Below are positions 5,345-63,577 of a DNA stretch of 64,000 nucleotides, one piece after another. Origin of the DNA: Natronocalculus amylovorans (lineage in GTDB: Archaea; Halobacteriota; Halobacteria; Halobacteriales; Haloferacaceae); assembly GCF_023638035.1 (NCBI RefSeq), contig NZ_JAKRVX010000005.1:1-64000 (forward strand). The letters are read 5' to 3'. Numbering within the stretch: the first letter of the stretch is position 1; each line of letters opens with the position of its first letter. Both the position numbers and the translations under genes were made by a program. The notes below the pieces were generated by a model that was given only the letters and a program-made list of their open reading frames with translations, ran no database searches and was not told the DNA's origin.

Positions 5345-5560
5345 AGTGAATCACCCCGAGGTCAAGCCTCGGGGCTTCCTGTTTCGATGACGTGACTTGC
5401 AGACACACGCTGGATATCAGCGGTGTCCGTAGCGGTCACAGTCTCCACAGGCGTGGATTCGGGCCATCCCAGCCCTAATATAGAAAACCCTCTTTTTAGG
5501 ACGTTCATCGATGCATTCGCATCCCTATCTGTCTCAAACCCACAGCCAGGACACGAGTGT
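5345..5560 (-). ncRNA. Predicted tnpB 3'-end guide RNA (sotRNA/reRNA)
   Basis: In haloarchaea, sense-overlapping transcripts have been reported from the 3' ends of IS1341-type tnpB genes, and in TnpB biology the RNA from the tnpB end through the right end is the guide scaffold. This stretch is the matching region, closing with the hairpin at 5354-5374. The guide would be the bases beyond the right end (below 5345). The boundaries are inferred; no transcript start can be seen. Confidence 0.45.
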
Positions 5561-6603
5561 TCCCTGACCCAAATGGGTTTTGTCGTTTCTACCCCACAAC
5601 ACGCACACTCTTTGGTCGTCCCACGAGAAGGCACTTGTACAACGTGTGTGCCGTACAAATCGCCTTTGTATTCGAGCAGGGTGATGAACTGTCGCCACGC
5701 TGCATCCTGCTTGTTCCGGGCGCTCCCCGTACCCTGAAGCATTCCAGCAACGTTTAAATCTTCGACGAACACGGCGTCGTACTCACGAACGAGCCACGTC
5801 GTCAGTTTGTGCTGATAGTCCAGTACGTTCCGCCGAATCTTCCGCTTCGTCTTAGCGACTTTCTGGCGCTGTTTCTCGTAGTTGTTCGAGCCGTGTTCTT
5901 TCCGCGAGAGGTTGCGTTGTTCTCGCCGGAGTCGCTCGTACTCGTCTTCGAGGTCGAGCCACTCCACTGCCTTTCCGTCCGACGTGTGGATGTAGTTCAA
6001 GATGCCGAGATCGACTCCCACGCTGTTGCTCGCGTCAAGCGAATCCAGTTCGGGTTTCTCTGGAACGTGTTCGTCGTCAGTTTCGAGGCTGAACGAGACG
6101 AACCACTCTCCAGTCACTTCTTTTTTGAGTGTGACTTCCTTGATAGTGGCATTTTTGCGGAGTGGTCGGTGATAACGGATTTTCATCCAGCCGATTTTAC
6201 TGAAGCGGACAGACGCAACCCTGTCTCGGCCCCTCTTGTTATCGAGGTCGAAGCCTGACTGGTTGTACGTGACACTTCGGTAGTCGCTGGGTGCTTGCCG
6301 CTTGAGCCACCCGACTTTGTATCCGTTTTCTTTCTTCTTGCGAAGGTTCGAGAGGTTACGGTGAAAGCGGGCGACGGTGGCTTGTGCTGCTTTCGAGTAT
6401 AACTCGGCGAATACGGGCCACTGTCGCTTCCACTCTGGAAGTTTGTTGTTCTGCGTGTATTCTTTGGGTTTGTCGTCGTCGGGACTATTCGTGTAGTCCC
6501 ATTTGACGTGATTGTAGAGTTGGCGATGAACGTCGATGTGATGTTCGGCAGCCGCCGCTACTTCGTCGCGTGGGTAAGCGCGGTAACGGTGGCTGTGTTC
6601 CAT
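5362..6603 (-). CDS. tnpB: TnpB RNA-guided nuclease (IS1341 type)
   Basis: A complete 413-residue TnpB. The RuvC-like catalytic residues are present: Asp in SVGVDLGILNYIHTS (about 192), Glu in AVFVEDLNVAGML (about 279) and Asp in DRDANASMNVLKRG (about 363). The zinc ribbon is made of CACCG and CPGCGFE. TnpB proteins are RNA-guided DNA nucleases, ancestors of Cas12, which cut donor or target DNA next to a short motif and help the element persist. The C-terminus (ESTPVETVTATD, then HVIETGSPEA) is encoded over the expected guide-RNA region. No tnpA and no small upstream gene accompany it. It belongs to the same lineage as the tnpB at 28123. Confidence 0.93.
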   Translation of the reverse strand: MEHSHRYRAYPRDEVAAAAEHHIDVHRQLYNHVKWDYTNSPDDDKPKEYTQNNKLPEWKRQWPVFAELYSKAAQATVARFHRNLSNLRKKKENGYKVGWLKRQAPSDYRSVTYNQSGFDLDNKRGRDRVASVRFSKIGWMKIRYHRPLRKNATIKEVTLKKEVTGEWFVSFSLETDDEHVPEKPELDSLDASNSVGVDLGILNYIHTSDGKAVEWLDLEDEYERLRREQRNLSRKEHGSNNYEKQRQKVAKTKRKIRRNVLDYQHKLTTWLVREYDAVFVEDLNVAGMLQGTGSARNKQDAAWRQFITLLEYKGDLYGTHVVQVPSRGTTKECACCGVETTKPIWVREHSCPGCGFETDRDANASMNVLKRGFSILGLGWPESTPVETVTATDTADIQRVSASHVIETGSPEA

Positions 6604-10420: not shown

Positions 10421-12706
10421 CTATTGCTGTTGTTGATAGTAGTATGCACCACCTGCTGCGAGTGCAATCAAGAGCAGGATAAGGATGATCAACGCGGAGC
10501 CACCAATTCCATCATCCTCTGGTGCTTCGGTCGTTACTGGTGGCTCAGTTTCGGTATCTGCTGGGTCTTCAGTTGGATCCGTGACCGAGAGCGTTCCTGC
10601 TGTGACTCCATTAACAGCAATGTCGAACGAACCCGCCTCGTCGAATGTTTCTGTGAATGAGACTGTCTTTGTCTCTCCAACATCGAGTTCGACTGTCTCT
10701 TGTGCTACGACATCTCCATCAACTTCGAGTTCAGCCGTGAACTCTCCTTCACCGCCTTCGTTTTCGATTTCTGCATCAACATCAACGCTCTCGCCAACTT
10801 CGATCTCATCTGCACTCAGTGAAGCATCAGTAACGCTTGCATCAACATCGTCTTGACCAGTAACTGCGTAAACGGACAGTCCGGGAGAGTCAGCAACGAA
10901 GACATATCGGTCGCCCTGTTGACCACGGAGTTTTGGCTCAAGGGTATTCCAGTTATCCCCTTCTTGACGGAGGAGGACAACATCCTCTGGATCGATATCA
11001 TTCCGCTCAAGTCGGTTTTCACTCACACTGAATCTGAATTGAACCTCATCAACGCTGTCTCCAACCTCGTCAGCGTAATCTAGTTGAAGGTAGGAGAGTC
11101 CACCAGCAGACGTTGTTACATCAGGTGTTCCCGATGGTGCCATGCTTGATCGGGTTGACGTGACCTCGAAATCAACGCCTTGGTTTGCTGTGAAGTTCAG
11201 GTCGGTAAAGGAAACACCGCTTGTTCGATCTTCGTCAGTTTCTGTGAAGCGAACGTTTGCAGAAGTCCCATTGGTTACCCGAACTGCGACAGAGCTTGCG
11301 TTTGCTTCTGTCACTTCAGTCTCAGTGCTTGGATTGTCAGGGGTGAGTTCAGGGAGGGTTGGAGTTGGGGATGGGGACGGACTTGGTGATGGTGATGGTG
11401 ATGGGCTCGGGGTAGGGTCATCATCTTCGTCTTCGATCGGGAAGTCAAACGTTCCCTTATCAGTTGAGAATTGGGTTGAGTCGCTTCCAGTTGCAACATA
11501 GACGAATTTGTATTCGCCATTTTCCCACGCATCATCAGTTTCTACGGTTAGTGTTTCTGAGCGATCGGCGTCACCGATACCGACTGCGGATGCATAGAGA
11601 ACATCGTCGCCAGGGTTAGTACCTGGACGATCTACATCTGCCTCATCGAAAATAAAGTTCACCGCATCTGCAAGCAAGAAGTTTGATGCACTCTGCTCAC
11701 TGATTTGTCGGTTAAGCACGCTCACATCGCCATCAAGATCTGCATTTCCAATCACTTCCTCAATAGAGTGGTCAATAGTAAATTCGTCTGTAGAGGTGTC
11801 TGAGTCAACACCACTCGGGGCATTTACCGTGAATGCGGAGTTCTCGAATTGTTCTTTATTATAGACAACTAGCGCATGGTTCAGGTCACCATCTGTTCCG
11901 ACGTTGGCGTCGACATCAAATTCAATTGTATCGCCTGCTTCTGCATCATCTGTTGTGATTTCCGCAGAGGCACTTTCTTCTTGGACAGCGACACTTTCGA
12001 GACCAACAATAGTCACATCGCCACCACTAACCGAATCGAAATTTCCATTGTCCAGATTTATATCTCCATCACCATGTGATGCAAAGACAGCATACATTCC
12101 GGAATCATCAAAGGCGTGATCGAAACTAACCTGCCCATTTGAACCTACAGTTGCAGATCCCGGTTCTGTTTTTGTGATCGTGGTATTGGCATTGGCATCG
12201 TCTTTATCGAACATGTCCCGAAGCTCATTAATTGAGCTTGGAACAGTATCGTCGACATCATCACTGTCAATATCTTCATCTAATTTCACAACAAAGAAAT
12301 CAAGATCTTCACCATTCAGATCCTGTGAACCTGTATCTGTCGTATCGAATGTGAAGTCGACCGTGGTTTGCTCGTCATACACTGGGAATGAGTCAATCAA
12401 ATCTGTACTCGTAGCAAACCCATCTTGGTTGACCTGGACAGTTGGTGCATCTACAGTGAGTGCGGCACTATTTCGATCAGCACGAAGAGGGACTATTGAA
12501 CGTTCCCAAACGCTGATTGAGTCCGTGATTTCAACAGAGTTGTCTGATAGGTCAGCGTTGTGTGTTAGATCACCCGGAGATCCGGTAATTGCATCTTGCG
12601 AACCACCCGATACACCCGCAGGGGCTGCGCCTGCGGCAACTGGCGATACTAACATCAGTAAAACGAGAAATATTGGTAACAATATTCTTTTTTTCCGCCT
12701 TGTCAT
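10421..12706 (-). CDS. Secreted PGF-pre-PGF surface protein with C-terminal membrane anchor
   Basis: A 761-residue acidic secreted protein. The ATG at 12706 gives a proper signal peptide (basic MTRRKKR, then ILLPIFLVLLMLVSPVAAGA); an upstream in-frame start would add 14 residues and spoil it. The N-terminal half is Asp/Thr-rich beta-type repeats. Near residue 475 there is a proline-serine linker of repeated PS units, then a PGF-pre-PGF type domain (VAVRVTNGTSANVRF, then VLLRQEGDNWNTLEP and YVFVADSPGLSVYAV). A CARDB-like domain follows (VDVDAEIENEGGEGEF), then a T/E-rich stalk and one C-terminal membrane helix (GGSALIILILLLIALAAGG) ending in YYYQQQQ. It probably stands on the cell surface near the FtsX-type transporter encoded downstream. 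Confidence 0.85.
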   Translation of the reverse strand: MTRRKKRILLPIFLVLLMLVSPVAAGAAPAGVSGGSQDAITGSPGDLTHNADLSDNSVEITDSISVWERSIVPLRADRNSAALTVDAPTVQVNQDGFATSTDLIDSFPVYDEQTTVDFTFDTTDTGSQDLNGEDLDFFVVKLDEDIDSDDVDDTVPSSINELRDMFDKDDANANTTITKTEPGSATVGSNGQVSFDHAFDDSGMYAVFASHGDGDINLDNGNFDSVSGGDVTIVGLESVAVQEESASAEITTDDAEAGDTIEFDVDANVGTDGDLNHALVVYNKEQFENSAFTVNAPSGVDSDTSTDEFTIDHSIEEVIGNADLDGDVSVLNRQISEQSASNFLLADAVNFIFDEADVDRPGTNPGDDVLYASAVGIGDADRSETLTVETDDAWENGEYKFVYVATGSDSTQFSTDKGTFDFPIEDEDDDPTPSPSPSPSPSPSPSPTPTLPELTPDNPSTETEVTEANASSVAVRVTNGTSANVRFTETDEDRTSGVSFTDLNFTANQGVDFEVTSTRSSMAPSGTPDVTTSAGGLSYLQLDYADEVGDSVDEVQFRFSVSENRLERNDIDPEDVVLLRQEGDNWNTLEPKLRGQQGDRYVFVADSPGLSVYAVTGQDDVDASVTDASLSADEIEVGESVDVDAEIENEGGEGEFTAELEVDGDVVAQETVELDVGETKTVSFTETFDEAGSFDIAVNGVTAGTLSVTDPTEDPADTETEPPVTTEAPEDDGIGGSALIILILLLIALAAGGAYYYQQQQ

Positions 12707-12796
12707 GTAACCAACTATTTCTGGCCCAAGGTATAGTATTTTCGTCAACAGTATACAGCTACTAACTACTAGTTAATACACGATTACTACCTGATT

Positions 12797-13350
12797 CAAG
12801 GAGAGAGTCCCGGCCTGAAGGCCGGGCGTGAATCCGACCACATTCACTTCGAACTACGGAATTCTGCAGTCGAGGGTCGTCTCTCCGGTAACTCAACGCG
12901 GAAAACCGGGGGTGGTTTGGCGTTCCCCTCGTCGGCGTGGTCGATAACACACCTTCGACCGAACTCACGTTCACCGGCGCACCCGCCGAAAGGTGGGCAT
13001 CAAAAACGCGAGCCTGCCGTGATTGAGCGTCACCGTTGTGGCAGAGAGGTGACGCAGGTCGATGGCACGACCCGTGCTCGGACGGCTTGAAAAAGTCGTT
13101 CGGGGGCATCCCGGAAATCCTTTGGGGACGGCGGGGATGCACGGTGCAAGGAGATACCGCGTCTACACGGACACCGAATACGCCATATCGCTCACGGGAC
13201 TCACGTACAGCGCACGAACTGAGACACTCCGATCCCGCCGGGTGAATTTGCCCCCGTCGGACAATCCGGATCCCACGCACCGTTTTGCAGGGTGCGACCC
13301 CGAGTGTGGACGGAGAAACCTCGCCGTAAACGGCGAGGAAGATGTTATTA
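12797..13350 (+). mobile_element. Degenerate IS200/IS605-type element, about 550 bp, no intact gene
   Basis: The left end is CAAGGAGAGAGTCCC within a 7-bp stem hairpin (12809-12826), followed by GTGAATCCGAC. The right end is an 8-bp stem hairpin (13319-13338) followed by AAGATGTTA, a decayed form of the GGATGTCA end. The interior is more G+C-rich than its neighbours and has no CGATCG. Open frames exist on both strands, but none shows TnpB motifs (no RuvC or zinc-ribbon signatures), so I treat it as non-coding. It separates the two surface-protein genes and lies about 60 bp upstream of the second one, where it could disturb or supply a promoter. Confidence 0.6.
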
Positions 13351-13405
13351 CCGATTCTCGTTTTCAGTAGGTAGATTATTACACACGGCGTATAACAAAG
13401 AAACA

Positions 13406-14509
13406 ATGTCTTATCCGTCTATTCGATCGCTCTCCACAGTGCTTATTTTATGTGTGGTTTTGAGTGTAGCGGTCATCACGGTTAGTGCGACTGGGTATAG
13501 CCTCTCGATTGCAGGGTCATTTAATTCACCAGAGGGACCACAAGAAATCAACGATCCGGATGGGAATACCCTTACCATTGATGAGTTGGCAGTTGTAGAT
13601 CACGGAGAAGATATCAGTGTCGACGCGATTCTCCCAGACGCAGACTTTACAGCGAGGGTAAATCTCGAACGGATTGACGAGAGTGGAGAGCCAGAACGGC
13701 CTGCACCGGATACGACAACAATTCGAGGAGATGATACTGTTATATTTGGGACCGAGAGTGTTGAGCCCGGAACATATGTTGTCGGTCTCTATGATGGCCC
13801 AATACAAGCCGCAGTCCCTGTTATTGTCGCAGGATATGACCTGTCTGTGACTGCCACTGAAGAGTCATCTGACCAAGTACGAATAACTGTTGAAACAACG
13901 GAGATTACAGACAGTGATGAGATAACACAAGCAGAGGTGTTGCTTTGGGATGAAGACAATGAAGTTCGAGAAACGTTGTCTGAGTCTAATGAGAGTACGT
14001 ATGATGGGTCGGTGTCGATCTCTAGCGGTGAGTTTGATGAATATGAAATATATACTGTTGTTCGGAGTGATACCGAAATATATGAAGGACAAAAAGATAT
14101 CTTGGGCGCAAGTGAACCAAAACGGCTCACCGAGATATTAACTGAGTCTTCGGAGGACGAGGAGAGTACAGAGACTGAGACACCAACGGAAACTGAGACC
14201 GAGACACCAACCGAAACAGAAGAGACCCCAACAGAGACAGACACACCGACTGAAACCGAAACGACACCATCCCCAACGACGGAAACAGAAACGGAAACGG
14301 AGGCAGGCGACGATGATCGCGATACCGTAATCACACCAAACCCAACGGAGACAGAAAGTGACGACGATTCCGCATCAGATACGCACACCAGTACACCATC
14401 ACAAACTGACGATACCACGCCGTTGCCAGTATGGCTCTCGATCGGTGGTCTCCTTCTATTAACGCTGCTCGCTGCCCGGCCGACCGATCGAGACCACAAA
14501 AAACAGTAG
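13406..14509 (+). CDS. Secreted surface protein with Thr/Glu-rich stalk and C-terminal anchor
   Basis: A 367-residue protein. The ATG at 13406 begins a signal peptide (SLSTVLILCVVLSVAVITVSA); the longer in-frame reading runs back into transposon sequence and is rejected. The folded part (about 28-240) looks like two beta-sandwich repeats. A low-complexity stalk of TE/TET units follows (about 255-345), probably heavily glycosylated at Thr, and one C-terminal helix (VWLSIGGLLLLTLLAA) before a basic RPTDRDHKK tail anchors it in the membrane. No known family is recognised. Together with the larger stalked protein on the other strand it suggests a surface-protein locus split by a transposon remnant. 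Confidence 0.8.
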   Translation: MSYPSIRSLSTVLILCVVLSVAVITVSATGYSLSIAGSFNSPEGPQEINDPDGNTLTIDELAVVDHGEDISVDAILPDADFTARVNLERIDESGEPERPAPDTTTIRGDDTVIFGTESVEPGTYVVGLYDGPIQAAVPVIVAGYDLSVTATEESSDQVRITVETTEITDSDEITQAEVLLWDEDNEVRETLSESNESTYDGSVSISSGEFDEYEIYTVVRSDTEIYEGQKDILGASEPKRLTEILTESSEDEESTETETPTETETETPTETEETPTETDTPTETETTPSPTTETETETEAGDDDRDTVITPNPTETESDDDSASDTHTSTPSQTDDTTPLPVWLSIGGLLLLTLLAARPTDRDHKKQ

Positions 14510-20466: not shown

Positions 20467-21909
20467 CTAGTCGTCATCGGCTGCAGTATCCGGCCGGTAT
20501 CCACGACTGATTGCTTTCCACTTGCCCGATCGGAATCGCCAGTAATTAATCGCGGCTGGCACACTTGTTTCAGCAACAAATGCGATGTAGAGCCCCCACA
20601 GTCCGATCGGGGTGAATGCGCCGATCGCTGCGAACACAATTGAGAGCCCCATTCCAAGCCCTTGGCTGACAAACGGAACGACCGTATCACCGCTTGCGTC
20701 AAGTGGCCCTGCTGCACCACTCGAGACACCCTGTAAAATCACCGCAATACAGGCAGCATACACCAATGTGACTGCGATCGGAATCTCTGGTGCGGTTGGG
20801 CTATCAACAAAGAGCCTGACAATCTGTTCTGCAAAGATTGCAATGAGAATTGCGGAGACGATGTAGGTAGAAACGGAAAATCGGATGATATCTCGGCCGT
20901 ATGCCTCTGCTGTCTGTTCGTCGCTTTGGCCCAAACTCTGTCCAACGAGGCTTGAGGATGCAAGGCCGAATCCCCATCCAGGGGTGTTCATGATCCCCCA
21001 GATCCGGCGGGCGATCACAAATGCAGCCACGACATCTTGGCCAAAGACATCCAGAATGCGAAGCATTGGGAACTCCGCAACAGTCCAGACAAGATTGCGG
21101 CCCATGACCGGTAGTCCGATCGAGATGAGATCGCGGATAGTCTCCATATCAACGTATGCGCCGAACGGATCGATCTGTACCGGAAATTCGCCAATCCCAA
21201 TGAGTCGCCCTCGTGAGAGTCCGATCGCAAATGCAGCCGTTACCAAGAGGTTCGACAGCACGGTCCCCATGGCTGCCCCCACAACCCCAAGTCCAAGCCC
21301 AAAGATGAGAACCGCATTGATCACAATGTTGGCGATCGCCCCACCAGCACGGATCAACATCGCAATATAGGAGTCATCGGCGCCGACCAACACCCGACTT
21401 CCAACAAGGTTGAGTCCTGCAAGCGGGACTGCAAGCCCAACGACTTGGAGATACGCCGCGCCAAGATCGATCGCCTCCGCATTCGAACTCAACAGCGAGA
21501 TCAGTTCATGTGGAATGGTCCAAAAGACAACGACAACAGGGAGACTGATGATGATCACAAGGAGCGTACTCGATCGAACCGCAACGCCAAGCGACTCGTG
21601 TGCATCAGCGCCATATCGCTGTGAAACGAGTGCGATCGTTCCACCAGCAATACCGCCACCGATCGAAAATGCGAGCCCCCAGAACGGACCGGCAAATCCG
21701 ACGCCTGCGATTGCCGCAGAGCCGACTGCAACGCCAACCATTGCGACATCGACCGCATTCTTTGACATCCGGGCAATGCCAGTAACGACACGCGGCCAGG
21801 CAAGCTCCGTTGTACGCTTTGCTCTGTGTGGGTCGATCAGCCCAAGCCGGCCAAGCGCAAGCCCAATATAGAGAATAACCAGCCGAACAGGATTGGGGAC
21901 CCGAGACAC
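20467..21909 (-). CDS. MATE-family multidrug/Na+ antiporter
   Basis: 480 residues with twelve membrane segments arranged as two similar halves (about 45-240 and 260-460), the MATE (NorM/DinF) fold. Recognisable pieces include NAVDVAMVGVAVGSAAIAGVGFA, here in TM1-2, and GGGIAGGTIALVSQRYGA. MATE transporters export organic cations or drugs in exchange for Na+ or H+. It lies 80 bp upstream of the kinase gene on the same strand and may be co-transcribed with it. The gene is dense in CGATCG (11 counted by eye), as expected for native DNA. Confidence 0.9.
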   Translation of the reverse strand: MSRVPNPVRLVILYIGLALGRLGLIDPHRAKRTTELAWPRVVTGIARMSKNAVDVAMVGVAVGSAAIAGVGFAGPFWGLAFSIGGGIAGGTIALVSQRYGADAHESLGVAVRSSTLLVIIISLPVVVVFWTIPHELISLLSSNAEAIDLGAAYLQVVGLAVPLAGLNLVGSRVLVGADDSYIAMLIRAGGAIANIVINAVLIFGLGLGVVGAAMGTVLSNLLVTAAFAIGLSRGRLIGIGEFPVQIDPFGAYVDMETIRDLISIGLPVMGRNLVWTVAEFPMLRILDVFGQDVVAAFVIARRIWGIMNTPGWGFGLASSSLVGQSLGQSDEQTAEAYGRDIIRFSVSTYIVSAILIAIFAEQIVRLFVDSPTAPEIPIAVTLVYAACIAVILQGVSSGAAGPLDASGDTVVPFVSQGLGMGLSIVFAAIGAFTPIGLWGLYIAFVAETSVPAAINYWRFRSGKWKAISRGYRPDTAADDD

Positions 21910-22038
21910 TTCCGTGTTGTTTGTGGGCGACGTTTAAGGGCGTTCGTCAGGGGGCATCGATCGCCGGTTTGCATGCGTTGCGTTGACAGGAACCGAAGGC
22001 CGAAAACCTATGTCAGACGATCGAGTGAATACGACTAG

Positions 22039-23265
22039 ATGCCCTCCTTCGATCGACGCACATTGTTGAAAACCGGTGGTGCTGTCAGTTTTGGTATTGG
22101 TATGTCAGGGTGTCTCGATCGCTTCGGTGACGATCGACATCGAAACACTGAGCCAGCCGATCGGCGCGTCACCCCGGATGAGAATCCAACTGACTGGCCC
22201 CGACCAACACGATCGCCAGCGAACAATCTTGTCTCTCCGGCTGCAACGCCGCCAAAAACGGAACCAACTGTCGAGTGGCAGGTGGACACACCAACAACCT
22301 GCGATCGGCTGGTGATTGTTGATAAGACAATCGTTGCAAGTACAGCCGAATCAGTCCATGCCGTTTCGCTCACAGACGGGACCGAGCAGTGGCGTGTTGA
22401 TGAGGGAGGGCGAGTTGTGAATGCGATCGCGGGGCGATGTTACGTGATTCGGGCGGAGACAGTTGTCGCCCTCACTGTGGAGACGGGAGAGACAATCTGG
22501 GAGCACGAATTCGATCGGTGGGCAATCGATCTGATAGAGCTAGATGGAACCGTATACGTCACGACGGATGAGGGACTGTTTGGACTCCACGCAGACAGCG
22601 GTGAGAAGCGGTGGCATGTAGATAGTGATGGACGCGAGGGCTTTCTTGCGGTTAGTGATGGGGATCTGCAGTGGGCGAACGATCGACAGTACACTATTTT
22701 TGCTGTGGATGGAGCACACGAACCAACGATCGACCAGCAGTATTCGCTTTCGACGGAGACGAGCACCATTCGCCCAAACGCACCAACAGTTGTGGACGGG
22801 ACGATCGCGATCGGTGGTGCGGATATAAATTTTGGTGCTGAGACTCCAGTTCGTGTGATCGATCGAGATGTCGTCTACAGCCGGGTCTTTGAGCCATACA
22901 TGCTCACACCGGCAATTGTGGATGATCGAATTCTTATTGCAGGCTATGACAATCGATCGGGTGCGATGGAGACCAGTACCGTTGCGGCGTGTAGCCACGA
23001 TCTTGATGAACGTCTCTGGGAGACAACAGTTGATGAACCGATCGGGGCACCAGCAGTTGCAGATGGCGTGATCTATACTGGCGGTGGCTATCCAGCGCAG
23101 TCCGGCGATCGGCGTGGGAAGCTGTATGCGCTGACCGTGGATACTGGTGAGGTGTTGTGGGAGATTGAGACTGCAGGCGCGAATGCCGGCCATCCGTTGG
23201 CATTGGTTGGTGAGTCGATCGTGGTTGGATCACACGACGGCATTTCGATGTTGTCTCCAGCGTAG
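22039..23265 (+). CDS. Tat-exported lipoprotein with PQQ-like beta-propeller
   Basis: 408 residues. The start MPSFDRRTLLKTGG has a twin-arginine motif (DRRTLLK), and a lipobox with Cys follows (GMSGCLDRF), so it should be Tat-exported and lipid-anchored outside the membrane. The rest is made of repeats such as VHAVSLTDGTEQW, VVALTVETGETIWEHE, LFGLHADSGEKRW and LYALTVDTGEVLWEIE, the tryptophan-docking blades of PQQ/BamB-like eight-bladed propellers. No PQQ dehydrogenase catalytic residues are evident; a scaffolding or binding role is likely. It contains 17 CGATCG sites, the densest gene counted in the window. Confidence 0.88.
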   Translation: MPSFDRRTLLKTGGAVSFGIGMSGCLDRFGDDRHRNTEPADRRVTPDENPTDWPRPTRSPANNLVSPAATPPKTEPTVEWQVDTPTTCDRLVIVDKTIVASTAESVHAVSLTDGTEQWRVDEGGRVVNAIAGRCYVIRAETVVALTVETGETIWEHEFDRWAIDLIELDGTVYVTTDEGLFGLHADSGEKRWHVDSDGREGFLAVSDGDLQWANDRQYTIFAVDGAHEPTIDQQYSLSTETSTIRPNAPTVVDGTIAIGGADINFGAETPVRVIDRDVVYSRVFEPYMLTPAIVDDRILIAGYDNRSGAMETSTVAACSHDLDERLWETTVDEPIGAPAVADGVIYTGGGYPAQSGDRRGKLYALTVDTGEVLWEIETAGANAGHPLALVGESIVVGSHDGISMLSPA

Positions 23266-28114: not shown

Positions 28115-28340
28115 TAAGTGAATTACCACGGGTCACCTGACCCGTGGCTTCCTGTTTCAACGACGCGCTTTGCAGGCACGACACGAAACGACGAATTGTC
28201 GTTCACGTCCGCACCCGTAGGGAGCGCAGTCTCCGCAGGCGTTGATTCGGCCTCTCCCAGACCTACTATCGCATCCACATCGTACTCGATACCTAGTTTG
28301 TCTAACCCGAGTTTCAGGATGTTATATGAAGCGTTCTCGT
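28115..28340 (-). ncRNA. Predicted tnpB 3'-end guide RNA (sotRNA/reRNA)
   Basis: Region equivalent to the reported sense-overlapping transcripts of haloarchaeal tnpB genes. It covers the AESTPAET-coding tail and the 10-bp stem hairpin at 28126-28147. The guide would read into the bases below 28115. The limits are inferred by position only. Confidence 0.42.
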
Positions 28341-29515
28341 CCCGGTCAGTCTCGAACCCACAACTCGGACACGAGTGTTCCCGAACCCAGAGTGCTTTGT
28401 TGGACTCACCGTCACAACGAGCACATCGCTTCGTCGTCCCCTCAGGTGGGACGGTCACGACGTGACAACCGTTCTTATCGCCGTGACGCTTGAACGTCTT
28501 GATGGCGTCACTCCACGACATCGACGCTATGTTCCGCCCATTCGAGTCCTGTTTGAGCATCTCGCGGACGTTGAGTTTCTCCAAGAACACCGCGTCGTAC
28601 TGCGTCGTGTACGAGCCAGCGAGTTTCTCAATGCAGTCCTTACGCTTGTTCGAAAGTGTCTCGTATGCTTCCGCAAGTTTCACTCGTGCGTTCTCCCAGT
28701 TCGCAGAGTCGTGTTCCTTTCGAGACAACGCTCGGTGACGTTTCTCGATTCGCTCACGGTCTTCAGACTCGTCCAACGGCGTAACCGCAGTACCGTCTGA
28801 ATCGTGCGTGAACTTGAGGATACCGAGATCAATACCAACAGTATCTTCAAGTTGGATATTTTTGACGGCTGGTTTATCGGGGTATTCTGGGTTGTGGTCA
28901 ACGACGACCGAAGCGTACCATTTTCCCGATTTTTCTTCCTTAAGACGAACTTCTTTGATGGTTCCATCTTCAGGAATTGGGCGATGGTAGTCAACGTCCA
29001 TTGTTCCGAGTTTCGAGAGTTCGAGTGTGGCGTGTTCGGTTCGGCCCGTGTTACTATCCACGTCAAAGCCAGACTGATTGAACACGATACTGCGGAACTC
29101 TCGGGGTGATTTCCACTTGAGTCTCCCCACTTTGTAGCCGTTGGATTTGAGTGACTTGAGAACGCTGAGGCTTGAGAAGATGCGTCGGACGGCCATCTGC
29201 AAGCACTTCGAATTCACCGTTTTCCACGAGTTCCACTTGCGTTTCCACGCAGGGAGTTTGTTCTGGAGGCGAGTGTACGTCGGCTTCTCGCCGTCAGGAG
29301 CAGAGTCGTAGCGTCCGAGTGCGTGGTTGTACACCTCCCGACAAATGTTGATGTGTCTGCGGGCCTCACTCGCGACATCTTCAGTCGGGTATACGCGGTA
29401 TTTGAACGTCTGCTCCACTACCGATATGTTGGGGGCGTACAACTTGAAGATTCGGTTCAGGTCGGGCGATTGTCGCATTCATCCCCGGGTGCGGTGACCC
29501 GGAGAATTCTGCTTG
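28118..29515 (-). mobile_element. IS1341-type tnpB element, complete (lineage A)
   Basis: The element carries tnpB only. The right end on the minus strand is a 10-bp stem hairpin at 28126-28147 overlapping the tnpB stop region. The left end has the CCGGGT-GCGGTG-ACCCGG hairpin at 29485-29502, with the outer edge near 29515. The next element begins about 15 bp away, so two different insertions are nested or tandem. It has no CGATCG across its length, in contrast with flanking genes. Confidence 0.82.
28123..29478 (-). CDS. tnpB: TnpB RNA-guided nuclease (IS1341 type)
   Basis: 451 residues with the full catalytic set: Asp in TVGIDLGILKFTHDS, Glu in AVFLEKLNVREML, a zinc ribbon (CARCDGE, CPSCGFE) and the last Asp in DRDENASYNILKLG. 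It belongs to the same lineage as the protein at 5362: both share the KYRVYP/HRYRAYP start region, the CPxCGFETDRD motif and an AESTPxET tail. The ATG at 29478 lies close to the left-end hairpin. An internal GTG around 29418 (VEQTFKYRVYP) gives a more usual N-terminus and may be the true start. Function as for other TnpB: RNA-guided cleavage, with the guide from the 3' end. Confidence 0.92.
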   Translation of the reverse strand: MRQSPDLNRIFKLYAPNISVVEQTFKYRVYPTEDVASEARRHINICREVYNHALGRYDSAPDGEKPTYTRLQNKLPAWKRKWNSWKTVNSKCLQMAVRRIFSSLSVLKSLKSNGYKVGRLKWKSPREFRSIVFNQSGFDVDSNTGRTEHATLELSKLGTMDVDYHRPIPEDGTIKEVRLKEEKSGKWYASVVVDHNPEYPDKPAVKNIQLEDTVGIDLGILKFTHDSDGTAVTPLDESEDRERIEKRHRALSRKEHDSANWENARVKLAEAYETLSNKRKDCIEKLAGSYTTQYDAVFLEKLNVREMLKQDSNGRNIASMSWSDAIKTFKRHGDKNGCHVVTVPPEGTTKRCARCDGESNKALWVREHSCPSCGFETDRDENASYNILKLGLDKLGIEYDVDAIVGLGEAESTPAETALPTGADVNDNSSFRVVPAKRVVETGSHGSGDPW

Positions 29516-52092: not shown

Positions 52093-53277
52093 TTAGATAT
52101 CGCCAGCGAGCACCTTAAACAGCCGATCAGTGAACGAATCGCGTGAAAATTGCGTTTCAGGGCCGGTGTCTCCGCCATCTGGTAGCCCGGGCTGGATGTT
52201 AATCGTTCCACCACCCATTCGTGCATGGCCACCGGCACCGGCATTTGGAAGCGGCTCAACTGCGGTCTCAAGGGCCTTCCCCATATGTACGCGATCGTCT
52301 CGTGATCGACCAGAGATGTGCAGTGTTCCCTCACGTTCTCCACAGATAACAACCGCAGTGACTCCTTCAAGCCGGATGAGCTCGTCTGCAGCTTGTGGAA
52401 TTGCATCTGCGTTTGAGACCGACCCCACATCACAGACCGCAAACGAACCACGGATTTTTCGACCAGCAATGGCACGTGCCTTCACTTCAAGCACTTCTGC
52501 ATCGACAGCAGGATTGGTGATCCGATCGAGTTGATCATCATCCACACCAGGATACAGATATGATGCTGCCGAAAAGTCCGCACCTGTTGCACCCACAGTG
52601 AGCCGGTTCGTATCTGCTAAAATCCCGCAAAGGAGCCCCGTTGCGACTGCAGACGGAACTGTGTAGCGAGCACCAGTCTCGCTTGTATGTCTATCTGCAG
52701 GAACTGGAACGGCACCAATATCTTGGAAGTACTCCGCGATGATGCTTGCACAGGCACCGTAGTCGGTTCGGACATCAGTAAACAGTTCACCGGTACCATC
52801 CCCGGGGTGATGATCAACCACCGCAATCGGGAGGATACCATCTGCACCCGTAAACCCACGTGGCTCGTTATGATCAACAAGAATGACATCTTCTGCAGCG
52901 AGGTCGGTGACGTGGTCAATGACGTCAAAATCGAGATCCAAAACAGTCTGAAATGCACGGTTCTCCTGGTGTCTGATCTGTCCGGCATACTGGATTGTTG
53001 CGTCTGTATCGAACTGCTCTGCAAGCGCAGCAACGCCCGTTGCAGCCGACATCGCATCTGGGTCCGGGTTTGGGTGCATTAAAATCGAAATCTCATCTCG
53101 CTCTTTGAGAAGCCGTGCAAATCGTTTTCCGTGAGGCCGTCGCCAGCGTACGATCGCGTACACAAACAAGATGACAGCACCGAACAGAAGCGCCGCTCCA
53201 ACGACAAACTCCGGCTGTGTCTGTGCAAACTCCGTTGCTTCGGCGTAGAGGTCCCCGGTGCCGACTGCGGTCCGCAT
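52093..53277 (-). CDS. Membrane-anchored DHH/DHHA1 phosphoesterase
   Basis: 394 residues. An N-terminal membrane helix (FVVGAALLFGAVILFVYAIV) is followed by a DHH domain with HPNPDPDAMSAA, VILVDHNEPRGF and AVVDHHPGDGTG (the DHH motif itself is VVDHHP) and the acidic ILADTNRL. The DHHA1 domain ends with the GGHARMGGG nucleotide-binding motif. Related proteins are NrnA-type oligoribonucleases and GdpP, a membrane-anchored c-di-AMP phosphodiesterase. As haloarchaea make c-di-AMP with DacZ, this protein is a reasonable c-di-AMP-hydrolase candidate, though it lacks the PAS/GGDEF parts of GdpP. The ATG at 53277 is used. Confidence 0.88.
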   Translation of the reverse strand: MRTAVGTGDLYAEATEFAQTQPEFVVGAALLFGAVILFVYAIVRWRRPHGKRFARLLKERDEISILMHPNPDPDAMSAATGVAALAEQFDTDATIQYAGQIRHQENRAFQTVLDLDFDVIDHVTDLAAEDVILVDHNEPRGFTGADGILPIAVVDHHPGDGTGELFTDVRTDYGACASIIAEYFQDIGAVPVPADRHTSETGARYTVPSAVATGLLCGILADTNRLTVGATGADFSAASYLYPGVDDDQLDRITNPAVDAEVLEVKARAIAGRKIRGSFAVCDVGSVSNADAIPQAADELIRLEGVTAVVICGEREGTLHISGRSRDDRVHMGKALETAVEPLPNAGAGGHARMGGGTINIQPGLPDGGDTGPETQFSRDSFTDRLFKVLAGDI

Positions 53278-53354
53278 ATGACACATAATCAGTGGCATCT
53301 GGTATCAACTTTCCCCGTTTTTTGTCCTCAGATACTGGTCATAACCCACCTGAG

Positions 53355-53610
53355 ATATTGTGAACAACCCCGACCACAAGGGTCGGGGCTTCTTCGTGGT
53401 TCCCTCAGATTATCGCTAACACTCCCTGCAACCTTGACGCCTACCCGTTCCAGAGCAAGGCCATCTCAACCGGTTACGAGGGATGAGGCCGGGCGGTTCA
53501 CACGCCCCGATGCCCACCGTCGTCGTCCGAAAATCGAAGATTTTCGTGATCACGAAAGACTCTATCTTTCGAACGACACCTTCCGAACTTGAGGAAGGCT
53601 CTTGAGAGCA
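53355..53610 (-). ncRNA. Predicted tnpB 3'-end guide RNA (sotRNA/reRNA)
   Basis: The stretch from the tnpB 3' end to the terminal hairpin, in the position of known haloarchaeal sense-overlapping tnpB transcripts. It contains strong hairpins at about 53530-53575 and 53368-53388. The guide would be read below 53355. The ends are inferred by position. Confidence 0.45.
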
Positions 53611-54767
53611 GGCACATCTAACAAACACTTCTTCAATCCACGCTTCGCAATGTTCACCGACGCATTCCTATCCGAATGGTCTTGGTGACCACACAACTTA
53701 CACTTGAATCGCTTCCGCCGTCGATTCGCTCGCTCGGCGTGTTCACACGCAGTCAACGCACAGCCCTGACTCGTGTACTCCGCTTCAACCGAAGCAATCG
53801 GAACACCTTCAAACGCTGCTTTGTACGCAATGAACACTTGCGTTGCACGAAACGGCATCGCGTGGAGCCGACGATTCATCCGAGTGCCGTAGTCGATTGA
53901 CTCACGCATATCCTTGAGGTCTTCAAGAGCAATGCACGGGTCAGGAAACCGCTTCGCAAACTCGACTACAGCCCGAGACAGTTTGTGGAGCCTGTCGTGG
54001 ACGAACCGATACTCCCGGTCACGAACCACCTTCTTGTACGACAGCTTCCCCGCATTCTGCATCCGCTTTTTTATCGTGAAATAGCGATGACGCTCAGACT
54101 TGATTTCGGGGAAGTCGATAACAAGCGTGTCGAGAACTCCCGTTTCATTCATCGCTGTCAACGCGATGTTATCCTCGTTCACATCCACTCCAATCACCGT
54201 CTTCGAGTCGGTTTTGTCTCGAACGGTCTGCGTCTGGTGGGTGACGTTGACGTGAAGTTCAGCACGGCCATCTGTAAAGAGGGCTTCAGCCGTCCCTATC
54301 TTCCACTCGCCACTCGACAACGCGGCTTTTAGCACGTCGAGATGCACCGGGTCTCCAACGAGTGTCCCCCGAACTGGGTGATATGGTTTCGGAGAGATAC
54401 GGAACGAAACGTCACCGTCGTCGGTGAGTGAGAGCGTATATCCTTCTTTGTGGTTCATCCGCAGAGGGTATAGCCCAGTTTTGGTGTGACTGGGAATGTT
54501 GTAGTCGTCGTATTCGTAGTAGTTCTCCATCGCTTCGAGAGCTTTCTTGACGACCAACTGAGTGTTATTCTTCACGAGGGTGGCGTCTTGCTCCATCTGG
54601 CGACGGATGTCATCCCAGTCTGCGCCTTGTTTGGCGAGGTGGATGGTGTCGTTGTACACTGAGCGCGATTCTTGTGTGGACTCGAAGACTTTCACCTCAT
54701 CACCCTCTTCGTAAAACTGGAGTTGGAGTGGGAGGGTTTTCGTGAGGCCTTGGTCTTCGATGTCCAT
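53562..54767 (-). CDS. tnpB: TnpB RNA-guided nuclease (lineage B)
   Basis: 401 residues. Catalytic residues: Asp in VIGVDVNEDNIALTA, Glu in CIALEDLKDMRES, Asp in HSDRNASVNIAKRG. The zinc ribbon is CALTAC with FKCKLCG. Shared features with the TnpB at 62252 (ALEDLKDMRESIDYGTRMNR against VMEDLAYIRESLDYGKYMNR) define a lineage distinct from the two A-type proteins. A short RHH-like gene ends 9 bp upstream and is probably co-transcribed. It is part of a complete IS605-type element whose TnpA is encoded divergently. Confidence 0.93.
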   Translation of the reverse strand: MDIEDQGLTKTLPLQLQFYEEGDEVKVFESTQESRSVYNDTIHLAKQGADWDDIRRQMEQDATLVKNNTQLVVKKALEAMENYYEYDDYNIPSHTKTGLYPLRMNHKEGYTLSLTDDGDVSFRISPKPYHPVRGTLVGDPVHLDVLKAALSSGEWKIGTAEALFTDGRAELHVNVTHQTQTVRDKTDSKTVIGVDVNEDNIALTAMNETGVLDTLVIDFPEIKSERHRYFTIKKRMQNAGKLSYKKVVRDREYRFVHDRLHKLSRAVVEFAKRFPDPCIALEDLKDMRESIDYGTRMNRRLHAMPFRATQVFIAYKAAFEGVPIASVEAEYTSQGCALTACEHAERANRRRKRFKCKLCGHQDHSDRNASVNIAKRGLKKCLLDVPALKSLPQVRKVSFER

Positions 54768-54776
54768 GCGTGCTAC

Positions 54777-54917
54777 TCACTCAGTGTCTTCGTCGTACGT
54801 CCACTCTCGGAGGATTTCTCGTACGACATCGGCTTTTGTTCGGTCTTCGTCGATGCATTTCTTCGAGAAGTCTTTGTAGAAGTCCTCCTCGAAATCGACG
54901 GTGAATCGTCGTGTCAT
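54777..54917 (-). CDS. Small RHH-like protein upstream of tnpB
   Basis: 46 residues from the ATG at 54917 to the TGA at 54777-54779. The pattern MTRRFTVDFEEDFYKDF, then RTKADVVREILREWT, is a beta strand followed by two helices, as in ribbon-helix-helix (CopG/ParD-type) DNA-binding proteins. It ends 9 bp before tnpB and starts 38 bp from the divergent tnpA, so it could repress both from the shared promoter region. A second short gene with similar predicted form overlaps the start of the tnpB at 62252. The two A-type tnpB genes have no such gene. The protein is acidic, with a DEDTE tail. Confidence 0.7.
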   Translation of the reverse strand: MTRRFTVDFEEDFYKDFSKKCIDEDRTKADVVREILREWTYDEDTE

Positions 54918-54955
54918 CTTTTTTGCAGTAAATACTTAGAAGTGTATTCACTTAA

Positions 54956-55378
54956 ATGTTGTTACTTCGTGTAGTGTGTATAGAGGCGACTCGCTCAAAC
55001 CACACAGTGTACAATATCAACTATCATTTCGTGTGGTGCCCCCGGTATCGACACTCATTTTTCGACTACGTTGCAGAGACATTGGAATCGGAGTTCCATG
55101 CGATTATCGAGCGGAACGACTACGAGTTGCGGTCGTTGCATATCTCTCCTGACCATGTTCATGTGTTCTTGGGAGCGCATGCAAAACACTCGCCAAGTGA
55201 GATTGTGTCACGGTTGAAGAGCGTGACAGCACGAAGATTGTGGTCAGAATATCCCGAAATGATGCGGTCGTTGTATTGGGGCGGTGGGTGTTGGGAGCGT
55301 TCGTTCTATGTGGGAACAGCAGGTGAGGTGAGTCGAGAAACGATTGAACAGTACATCAATCGCAGTGAGCATGTGTAG
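54956..55378 (+). CDS. tnpA: TnpA Y1 transposase (IS200/IS605 family)
   Basis: 140 residues with the HUH single-strand transposase pattern: YNINYHFVWCPRYRH near the start, the His-hydrophobic-His motif SPDHVHVFLG, and a C-terminal helix with the nucleophilic Tyr in VSRETIEQYINRSEHV. SFYVGTAGEVS precedes that helix, as in family members. TnpA excises and inserts the element as single-stranded circles by recognising the subterminal hairpins. It is divergent from the RHH-like gene and tnpB. Being intact, it is the best candidate to mobilise the other elements here that have only tnpB or no gene. Confidence 0.92.
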   Translation: MLLLRVVCIEATRSNHTVYNINYHFVWCPRYRHSFFDYVAETLESEFHAIIERNDYELRSLHISPDHVHVFLGAHAKHSPSEIVSRLKSVTARRLWSEYPEMMRSLYWGGGCWERSFYVGTAGEVSRETIEQYINRSEHV

Positions 55379-55454
55379 TCTTTCGACGGGCTTCACCCCC
55401 GACCTCAAGGGTCGGGGTTCTCGCCCTGCTCCGCCTATAGAATTGCCGGAGATG

Positions 55455-56378
55455 CTACTCGTTTTGGGAGCGCTTGAACGCTGCAACTGCTGCTGCGTAC
55501 CCCTCTCGATAGGTTGGATACTGGAGCTCGTAGCCAAGCTCACGGAGTTTTGTATTGGAACATCGTTTGCTGGTCTTGATCCGCCGTTGCGCTGCGTCTG
55601 AAAGGTCGCCCGCTGCAAGGCGTTCAGCTTTTGTTCGTTTTGGAGGGTGTTGAACACCACACTGTTCAGCAAGCCAGTCTGCAAATCCCCATTTGTCAGC
55701 GGGTTCGTCATCAGCCACAAGCACAACCTCATCACGTGCAAGATCGTTTGTCAATAGATGCGTGATCGATCCTGCAGCATCATCTCGATGGATCATGTTT
55801 AGGTATCCCTCTGTGACTGGCCCCTCAATATATCGGGAGAGTCGATAGCGATCGGGGCCGTATAACCCTGCAAAGCGAGCGACCGTTCCATCGATGCCAT
55901 ACTCTTTTGCATACTGTCTGGCAACACGCTCTGCCTCGGCAAGGACGATCGTTTTGTCTGTTGTTGGGTTCACTCGTGTTGACTCATCAACCCACTCGCC
56001 ATCATGATCGCCATACACTCCCGTGCTTGAGGTATAAACAAGGCGCTCAGGAGGATTCGATCGCGAGCCATATGCTGCAATCGATGATTCCAATCCCTCA
56101 ACGAAGATTCGCTCTGCTGCGGTCGCATCACGCCCACCTGAGCTGGCTGCAAATATGATCCATCGTGCATCCGGTAGCTTTGCCAACGAATCTGGATCGC
56201 TAACATCACCCTCGACGGCAGTGAACCCTGCTTCATCGATCGAATTGAGGCCGTCTTCGGACCGACGGACACCAACAACACTGTATCCTGCGTCGGTAAG
56301 CTGTTTTCCGAGTTCGATTCCAACGTACCCACAGCCAAGGATCACAACGTCCACTCGTTCTGTAACCGTTTCACTCAT
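55455..56378 (-). CDS. NAD-dependent epimerase/dehydratase family protein
   Basis: 307 residues. Rossmann motif VVILGCGYVGIELGKQL (GxGxxG variant), the ARWIIFAASSGGRD strand, and the extended-SDR catalytic region VYTSSTGVYGDHDGEWVDES, although the usual YxxxK is replaced by a KTIVLAEAERVARQYAKEYG helix. The later part (GPVTEGYLNMIHRDDAAGSI) matches sugar-nucleotide-type epimerases of the YeeZ/atypical branch. The substrate is unknown. It is 5 bp downstream of a DUF5791-type gene on the same strand and ends 25 bp from the IS605-type element. Confidence 0.85.
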   Translation of the reverse strand: MSETVTERVDVVILGCGYVGIELGKQLTDAGYSVVGVRRSEDGLNSIDEAGFTAVEGDVSDPDSLAKLPDARWIIFAASSGGRDATAAERIFVEGLESSIAAYGSRSNPPERLVYTSSTGVYGDHDGEWVDESTRVNPTTDKTIVLAEAERVARQYAKEYGIDGTVARFAGLYGPDRYRLSRYIEGPVTEGYLNMIHRDDAAGSITHLLTNDLARDEVVLVADDEPADKWGFADWLAEQCGVQHPPKRTKAERLAAGDLSDAAQRRIKTSKRCSNTKLRELGYELQYPTYREGYAAAVAAFKRSQNE

Positions 56379-62115: not shown

Positions 62116-62277
62116 ATGAGAGCCGACTTCGATATGGATCGAGGCGGGCCACTTCACGAGGCCGTGAAGCAATACGCCCGCGATAACGGGATACGCCACT
62201 CACGAGCGTACCCCGAACTCCTCCGCAAAGCACTCGAATCTGAAGGCTACGATGTCAACGACTCAGACGGCGAATAA
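62116..62277 (+). CDS. Small RHH-like protein overlapping tnpB
   Basis: 53 residues from the ATG at 62116 to the TAA at 62275-62277, overlapping the start of tnpB (62252) by 26 bp in another frame. The pattern MRADFDMDRGGPLHEAVKQY and then YPELLRKALESEGYD gives a short N-terminal strand and two helices, as in RHH-like regulators, and it ends in an acidic tail (NDSDGE). The overlap implies translational coupling. The sequence is not closely related to the small gene at 54777, but size and place are alike, suggesting a recurring partner of lineage-B tnpB. Confidence 0.65.
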   Translation: MRADFDMDRGGPLHEAVKQYARDNGIRHSRAYPELLRKALESEGYDVNDSDGE

Positions 62278-63577
62278 GACGCTGGAAGCCACGTTCGCAC
62301 CACCCACGCGGTGCAAAGAGCAACGCCTCCAGCAAACGCTGTCCGAATACCGAGACGCACTCAACGACGCCTTCGAGCAAGACTGTACGACGATGAGTGC
62401 CACGAACGACGTGGTGACGCCGTACAACCTACCGTACCAAGCGAAAGACGCTCTCAAATCCTACGTCCCGAAACTCCACAACACGTACAACGCCAACGAG
62501 TTGGGCGACGAACACCCGCTCAGGTTCGTGAACCGAGCCGGGAAGTTCGACCGCGACACCTCGCGTGAGTACGAAATCTGTTGGAACGTTCCGCAACCCG
62601 GTCGCGGAACCAACTTCTGGATTCCACTCCGACCGAACCCCGAACAGCAAGAATTGTGGGACGAGATGCTCGATGACGAGTCGAGTACCAAGGTGGGCGA
62701 ACTTCGGTTGCAGAAACACCGGAAGATGTGGACGCTCCACGTCACCGTTGAATACGAAATCGAGGACACCTCCGAACTTCCCGAGAACCCGACTCGGGTT
62801 GGATTCGATATTGGCGAGTCGATGTTGGTCACGGGCTGTGCCCTCCAACACGACACTCCCACGAAACCCCTTCTCATCACCGGGAAAGAGGCCAAACAAA
62901 TCCGCAAGGAGATGTTCACGACACTCAAGCGACTCCAAGAGCGAGACGCCTCCGAGTGGCGTATCGAGGAGCGATTCTCGTACTACCAGAACCGGCTCAC
63001 GGACATCATCGAGAAGGCGTCTCGGGAATCTGTGGAGTACGCCCGTCAGTTTGAGAACCCCGTCATCGTGATGGAAGACTTGGCGTATATCCGTGAGTCG
63101 CTGGACTATGGGAAGTATATGAACCGTCGCCTGCACTCGTGGGCCTTTGCTCGGTTGCAGGGTCGTATCGAGGACAAGGCGAAGGACGCCGGTATTCCAG
63201 TTCGATACGTCCGCCCGCAGTACACCTCGAAGACGTGTCACTCGTGCAAGCACATCGGGTATCGACCTCGGCAAGCCGAGTTCAAGTGTAAGAATCCAGA
63301 GTGCCACGTATCGACGTTCCAAGCGGACATCAACGCGAGTGCGAACATCGCACGTCGCGTAGACCCGTGGGGAGAGAGCTTGCCGTGGAAACAGGCAGGC
63401 GATGACTCGCCACAGGACGGGAGCCGTTGTGACACGGCCACGACTCAGTGTGAGCAGAGCGAGACACCCTCGCAGATGACACTTACAACGTTTCGAGAGT
63501 CGAAACCTACAGCCAGCGTTCACGAGACTATGTCTCGTGGGCCAACCAGAACCTACGGTTCTGGTGACGACGACTGA
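62252..63577 (+). CDS. tnpB: TnpB RNA-guided nuclease (lineage B)
   Basis: 441 residues. Catalytic residues: Asp in VGFDIGESMLVTGC, Glu in VIVMEDLAYIRESLDYG, and Asp in TFQADINASANIARRV. The zinc ribbon is KTCHSCKHIG and FKCKNPECHVS. It is most like the protein at 53562 and is preceded by a small overlapping gene. The C-terminal tail (SRGPTRTYGSGDDD) lies over the expected guide-RNA region and ends 25 bp before the right-end hairpin. Confidence 0.93.
   Translation: MSTTQTANKTLEATFAPPTRCKEQRLQQTLSEYRDALNDAFEQDCTTMSATNDVVTPYNLPYQAKDALKSYVPKLHNTYNANELGDEHPLRFVNRAGKFDRDTSREYEICWNVPQPGRGTNFWIPLRPNPEQQELWDEMLDDESSTKVGELRLQKHRKMWTLHVTVEYEIEDTSELPENPTRVGFDIGESMLVTGCALQHDTPTKPLLITGKEAKQIRKEMFTTLKRLQERDASEWRIEERFSYYQNRLTDIIEKASRESVEYARQFENPVIVMEDLAYIRESLDYGKYMNRRLHSWAFARLQGRIEDKAKDAGIPVRYVRPQYTSKTCHSCKHIGYRPRQAEFKCKNPECHVSTFQADINASANIARRVDPWGESLPWKQAGDDSPQDGSRCDTATTQCEQSETPSQMTLTTFRESKPTASVHETMSRGPTRTYGSGDDD

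Follow-up and report, generated by a model that had tools for sequence, protein, structure and literature searches.

Two genes of this archaeal genome, encoding a beta-propeller lipoprotein and a MATE transporter, carry so many copies of the palindrome CGATCG that they raise the question of whether a signal like HIP1, the CGATCG-centred palindrome of cyanobacteria (GCGATCGC), is at work in a haloarchaeon and, if it is, whether DNA methylation sustains it there. The role of HIP1 is itself a long-standing open question, for which the link to methyltransferases has been the main clue so far. We use the term HIP in the sense of Elhai (2015), as a palindromic oligomer that lies far over expectation genome-wide, is present in coding and non-coding DNA regardless of frame and is generally, with exceptions, associated with a cognate methyltransferase in the same genome.

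Abundance of CGATCG in the window and the genome

The window, that is, the whole stretch of 64,000 nucleotides that was analysed, holds 240 CGATCG sites, which are spread over native genes and the DNA between them; dinucleotide shuffles give 38.0 ± 6.0. The initial annotation had counted the sites of several genes by eye and these counts proved exact (Table 1), though its expectation of 0.3-0.4 sites per gene was too low, the dinucleotides giving about 0.6 per kb, which leaves the result unaffected. Per-gene counts are broadly distributed, with the propeller gene at their extreme (P about 6e-6 relative to the host rate) and the MATE gene mildly high only (P 0.02 relative to the same rate); the phenomenon is genome-wide and not special to these two genes. 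There are 11,565 sites in the whole genome (3.26 Mb). In the window, as in 400 kb of another contig, C2, CGATCG is the most abundant hexamer and, in the count against Markov models that had been recommended, also the top outlier at orders 1 to 4, with observed/expected ratios in C2 of 5.80, 3.37, 2.51 and 1.26, respectively. Sequence statistics were drawn from 20-kb stretches of genomes. The excess is common to all contigs sampled, and the sole unmasked contig without a site is the carrier of the rRNA operon.

Table 1. CGATCG and GATC content of genes and of the longest site-free run, with positions in the window
Feature	Position	Strand	CGATCG	GATC	Remark
PQQ/BamB-type beta-propeller lipoprotein gene	22039..23265	+	17		densest gene seen
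MATE transporter gene	20467..21909	-	11		
AAA_16 (Orc1/Cdc6-like) gene	1158-2333		2		
tnpB (OrfB_IS605/Cas12f1-like_TNB)	5362..6603	-	0	1	
tnpB	28123..29478	-	0	1	
tnpB	53562..54767	-	0	0	
tnpA (Y1_Tnp, IS200-like)	54956..55378	+	0	0	
tnpB (Cas12f1-like_TNB)	62252..63577	+	0	0	
Longest stretch without CGATCG, 2.7 kb	53151..55849				contains the tnpA/tnpB element

Most haloarchaea carry CGATCG at the level that their dinucleotides predict, as would be expected if the excess were a by-product of haloarchaeal codon, amino-acid or dinucleotide usage. When genes of this genome were shuffled internally with protein and codon usage preserved, however, only 339 ± 15 coding sites were formed in place of the 1261 observed (3.7-fold, z = 60). 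Each of the three frames is in excess (261/53, 4.9x; 584/155, 3.8x; 416/131, 3.2x, observed/shuffled), and intergenic DNA holds 165 sites against 28 expected. Enrichment thus persists under exactly the kind of codon- and dinucleotide-aware model that had been named as its possible undoing, and the by-product reading is refuted for this clade by the shuffles, the frames, the intergenic DNA and the Markov models together; we regard it as barely tenable. CGATCG is therefore present in coding and non-coding DNA irrespective of frame, as in the definition of a HIP.

The bias is confined to the exact hexamer, since hexamers differing by one base lie at about 0.8-1.35 of expectation, the flanks are unspecific and GATC outside CGATCG stands at 0.85 of expectation in this genome. 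The Asp codon is GAT in 92% of cases between C and CG and in about 58% elsewhere (53-65% across all other contexts); the corresponding figures for strain SHRA6, a relative described below, are 87% and 28%, with 36% in other haloarchaea. Roughly 50-80% of the places that the protein sequence permits actually hold CGATCG. Apart from the codon period of 3, the sites show no regular spacing, clustering or helical periodicity and are Poisson-like. Furthermore, the bias reaches the proteins, where dipeptide use is shifted in the clade: Asp-Arg and Arg-Ser stand at 1.5 and 1.35 of expectation (1.0 and 0.93 in related Haloferacaceae) and [SPTA]-Ile-[VADEG] at 1.4-1.7 (1.2 in related Haloferacaceae), with a flat Val control.

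Several other motifs deviate in the 400-kb sample of C2, where the non-palindromic CAAGCG/CGCTTG is about 2-fold and CTGCAG 1.8-fold over-represented and where CTCGAG, GGCGCC and TGCGCA are strongly under-represented. A search of the window against Rfam gave no match.

Distribution among haloarchaea and maintenance of sites

By EF-2 the nearest named relatives (95% identical) are Halalkalirubrum salinum and strain SHRA6; the genome treated here as H. salinum, an inferred assignment, belongs to the same genus as SHRA6. Relative to dinucleotides, CGATCG is enriched 5.8-fold in this genome and 3.5-fold in both SHRA6 and H. salinum, while all other haloarchaeal samples have ratios of at most 1.9, most of them about 1 or lower. 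Strong enrichment is confined, among the haloarchaea sampled, to one clade composed of the host and Halalkalirubrum/SHRA6, so that the suggestion of a HIP-like signal in a haloarchaeon holds here without extending to haloarchaea in general. We found no earlier report of a CGATCG excess in archaea in the open-licence literature searched.

About one third of 155 haloarchaeal genomes are depleted of CGATCG. Class-wide counts are bimodal, and we rejected a division into enriched and non-enriched genomes, the 'high' mode lying mostly at the dinucleotide expectation and the 'low' mode being depleted. Some depleted genomes are nearly free of GATC, with 0-5 copies in 20 kb (depleted examples include G077, G146 and Haloprofundus marisrubri), a few avoid CGATCG specifically with GATC normal (G061, G067), and switches occur inside the genera g27, g32, g41 and g11. 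The dipeptide balance of GATC-avoiding genomes is shifted the opposite way (Glu-Arg 1.43, Asp-Arg 0.97, pooled genes); it appears that avoidance or excess of a motif bends protein sequences.

Two comparisons within the clade bear on whether the sites are maintained. The first sets the host against SHRA6 over 70 kb of orthologous codons, at 69% nucleotide identity; here 55% of host sites are common to both, the highest sharing of any common hexamer, and some 70% of the permitted places that are unfilled in the host are filled in SHRA6 (frames 1 and 2). The second covers only 82 kb, over which SHRA6 and H. salinum are 92% identical. CGATCG has a change rate of 12.5% there, the minimum of 112 hexamer classes whose mean is 25.6% (sd 4.3); the rate for one-off hexamers is 28.2% (Fisher P 3e-12). 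The loss rate of CGATCG is about half that of other hexamers, and the motif is maintained at present. Where its sites do change, all six positions are affected, with an ordinary spectrum of transitions. By our arithmetic the loss ratio of 0.44-0.49 corresponds to a 2Ns of about 1.3-1.5 and predicts an enrichment of about 4-fold, compared with 3.5 observed in SHRA6, and the codon-odds ratios correspond to 2Ns of 2.1 to 2.8. The low loss rate on its own does not distinguish selection from a bias of repair or conversion, because any maintaining process lowers the loss of an enriched motif.

These results also bear on the idea that CGATCG is the relic of a CGATCG methyltransferase or restriction system lost from the ancestor of the clade. 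Such a relic would account for a motif common to both genera with no present methyltransferase in two of the three genomes, but in that case site loss between closely related species should no longer run at half the normal rate, nor should the places unfilled in the host be so largely filled in SHRA6. Restriction, moreover, normally reduces the frequency of its target. We consider a relic very improbable. From the excess in all frames and in intergenic DNA, the filled places and the halved loss, we take CGATCG to be maintained now, as neither a relic nor a by-product of codons or dinucleotides.

Methylation and repair enzymes

In the host genome, searched with contigs C10, C11 and C13 masked as N, there was no match to MethyltransfD12 (Dam), DNA_methylase (C5), N6_Mtase or Eco57I. 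The MethyltransfD12 negative covers the D12-class GATC methyltransferase gene of the orphan Dam/GATC system (cHG W). Also missing from the host is a match to DndC of the phosphorothioate Dnd modification of GATC, which is present in 3 of 155 genomes. The proposed search for a CGATCG or GATC methyltransferase gene thus returned none among the recognised families, and the cognate enzyme that generally goes with a HIP was not found in the host; the suggested link of CGATCG to methylation finds no support in any family tested. Dam and C5 genes were not found in SHRA6 either, although SHRA6 has PF02384 and PF07669 proteins that it does not share with the host.

The sole host protein of family PF01555 (N6_N4_Mtase) is 54-64% identical to single orthologues across the class, CGATCG-poor genera (for example g7) included, and its family includes the Haloferax enzyme that has been characterised as an m4C CTAG methylase (PMC5867850). 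This CTAG orthologue is the only methyltransferase found in both the host and SHRA6, and it was rejected as the CGATCG enzyme since it occurs class-wide, in genomes low in CGATCG as well. H. salinum has one Dam-like gene; the piece that carries it is 3.8 kb long and has 43% GC and 0 CGATCG, features from which the gene looks acquired. Among 143 classified genomes, those of high and those of low CGATCG density are not told apart by the presence of Dam-type or C5 enzymes. Dam, C5, DndC and Mrr, the last found (as Mrr_cat) in 118 of 155 genomes and judged by eye from this near ubiquity, were all rejected as explanations for want of a useful association with high CGATCG.

These data weigh on a methylation-linked mechanism as proposed in Elhai's model for HIP1, in which a CGATCG or GATC methyltransferase and methyl-directed mismatch repair together create and fix sites. 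There is precedent for it in that, in cyanobacteria, an excess of HIP1 and the methyltransferases for GATC and CGATCG have almost the same distribution (PMC4390886) and an excess of GATC in Halobacteria is tied to an orphan Dam group (PMC6471742), and the Dam-like gene of H. salinum might be counted in its favour. That gene, however, lies on a CGATCG-free piece, and enrichment in H. salinum does not exceed that in SHRA6, which does without it; no such enzyme was found in the host or SHRA6, the one methyltransferase that they share is also present in CGATCG-poor genera, and Dam-type or C5 presence is uninformative as to CGATCG density. Furthermore, the host MutL has DQHAADERVNYE, the endonuclease motif that goes with mismatch repair independent of methylation. 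We judge this mechanism improbable, and conclude from gene content that recognised GATC or CGATCG methylation is not needed for the excess, though an enzyme of an unrecognised family, or one encoded on the masked contigs, is possible.

Mobile DNA and a putative CGATCG-recognition factor

At the host rate the 5,553 bp of the four tnpB genes and tnpA would hold about 21 CGATCG; they hold none, so that the tnpB genes do not share the host density, as predicted. This zero is marginal against their own composition, for which codon shuffles give 2.2. The IS200/IS605-group tnpB genes of the window avoid several 4-bp palindromes; compared with their own codon shuffles the tnp genes have GATC 2 times against 18.7, AGCT 3 against 17 and CATG 5 against 12.9. 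Avoidance of 4-bp palindromes is a signature of restriction avoidance that is more usual in viruses. The tetramer avoidance reported in HF1-group haloviruses (PMC7230728) resembles that of these tnp genes. Because GATC, AGCT and CATG are shunned in this way, the absence of CGATCG is partly an older signature of restriction avoidance and partly a lack of time. No CRISPR arrays, a possible route to a virus of the host, were found in the host stretches examined.

As a marker of native DNA, as it had been put forward, CGATCG serves to the extent that mobile DNA shows up as long runs without a site, the IS elements lying in four of the five longest of the window; the absence of the motif from the tnp genes says less, these genes avoiding GATC, AGCT and CATG generally. 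CGATCG-free runs are nevertheless a practical marker of recently acquired DNA in this clade. Positions 10421-13424 of the window are site-poor, with 2 CGATCG in a 2.3-kb CARDB-domain gene (P 0.008) and 0 in a 214-aa ORF, and are possibly another acquired region. Just right of the window (contig C16 65509-67677), CGATCG-poor surroundings, probably an acquired island, encode a protein of 722 aa that has an Mrr_cat restriction domain at its N-terminus.

The reading that we favour, with a probability of roughly 55%, is that CGATCG is a clade-specific HIP-like palindrome that is kept, without methylation, by weak selection at each site or an equivalent drive acting via a putative DNA-recognition factor. 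Each site would bring a small, independent advantage that does not depend on spacing, with a 2Ns of about 1.3-2.8. A putative homodimeric, sequence-specific DNA-binding protein would recognise unmodified CGATCG genome-wide, and its role might lie in nucleoid organisation, repair or DNA exchange; we infer this step from the symmetry of the palindrome, which suggests that the factor is probably dimeric, and from the elimination of alternatives. Foreign elements would lack the motif through having had too little time to acquire it and through arriving already depleted of GATC. The fuller proposition, that a factor reading unmodified CGATCG has shaped both codon choice and dipeptide use and that this methylation-free HIP of archaea is of independent origin, is more tentative, and we would put it somewhat short of an even chance.

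A drive by conversion or uptake with the same arithmetic could take the place of selection. In its non-adaptive form, a bias of repair or conversion, or a preference in uptake or transfer, would enrich CGATCG as a by-product akin to uptake sequences, and the independence and Poisson-like spacing of the sites, their occurrence between genes but not in new insertions, and an equilibrium identical in form to that of weak selection are all consistent with it. Uptake sequences, however, are not known to be palindromic, and known ones fall below the density of 3.5-5 per kb seen here. The transition spectrum over all six positions is not the single mismatch class of Vsr-like repair, and one-off hexamers are not depleted. 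We regard this form of drive as unlikely, if far from negligible. The uptake sequences of Pasteurellaceae and Neisseriaceae do resemble CGATCG in being dense, short motifs with weak per-site maintenance that are poor in foreign DNA, and differ in that CGATCG is palindromic and denser and its host is without known competence.

The orphan Dam (cHG W)/GATC system belongs to the same class of archaea, shares the GATC core and is likewise reported as over-represented, with an excess of GATC linked to it in Halobacteria (PMC6471742), but the excess in the host is limited to the CGATCG subset of GATC and the Dam gene is absent. With HIP1 the host signal shares a CGATCG-centred palindrome, high density, coding and non-coding presence and restriction to a clade. 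It differs in its host, a member of the archaeal class Halobacteria and not a cyanobacterium, in the lack of any GATC or CGATCG methyltransferase found, and in its enriched unit of 6 bases rather than 8. The observed/expected ratio (order 1) of GCGATCGC in the host is 4.86, compared with 5.80 for CGATCG (77 octamers, 1427 hexamers, 400 kb), and only SHRA6 shows a mild octamer preference (4.73 against 3.53). Identity with HIP1 is therefore set aside, there being no preference for G-CGATCG-C in the host: CGATCG behaves as a HIP but is not HIP1. Exceptions without a CGATCG methyltransferase exist among cyanobacteria with HIP1 too, the densest ones included (PMC4390886), and the present case so extends the hint that they give.

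If our reading is true, this would be a second HIP-like case with CGATCG at its centre, found in a different domain of life where the enzymes are missing, and what counts would be the palindrome and not whether it is methylated. The three genomes, together with near outgroups in which CGATCG is neutral (Halonotius, Halohasta, Halorubrum) or avoided, provide a comparative system in which candidate reader proteins may be sought.
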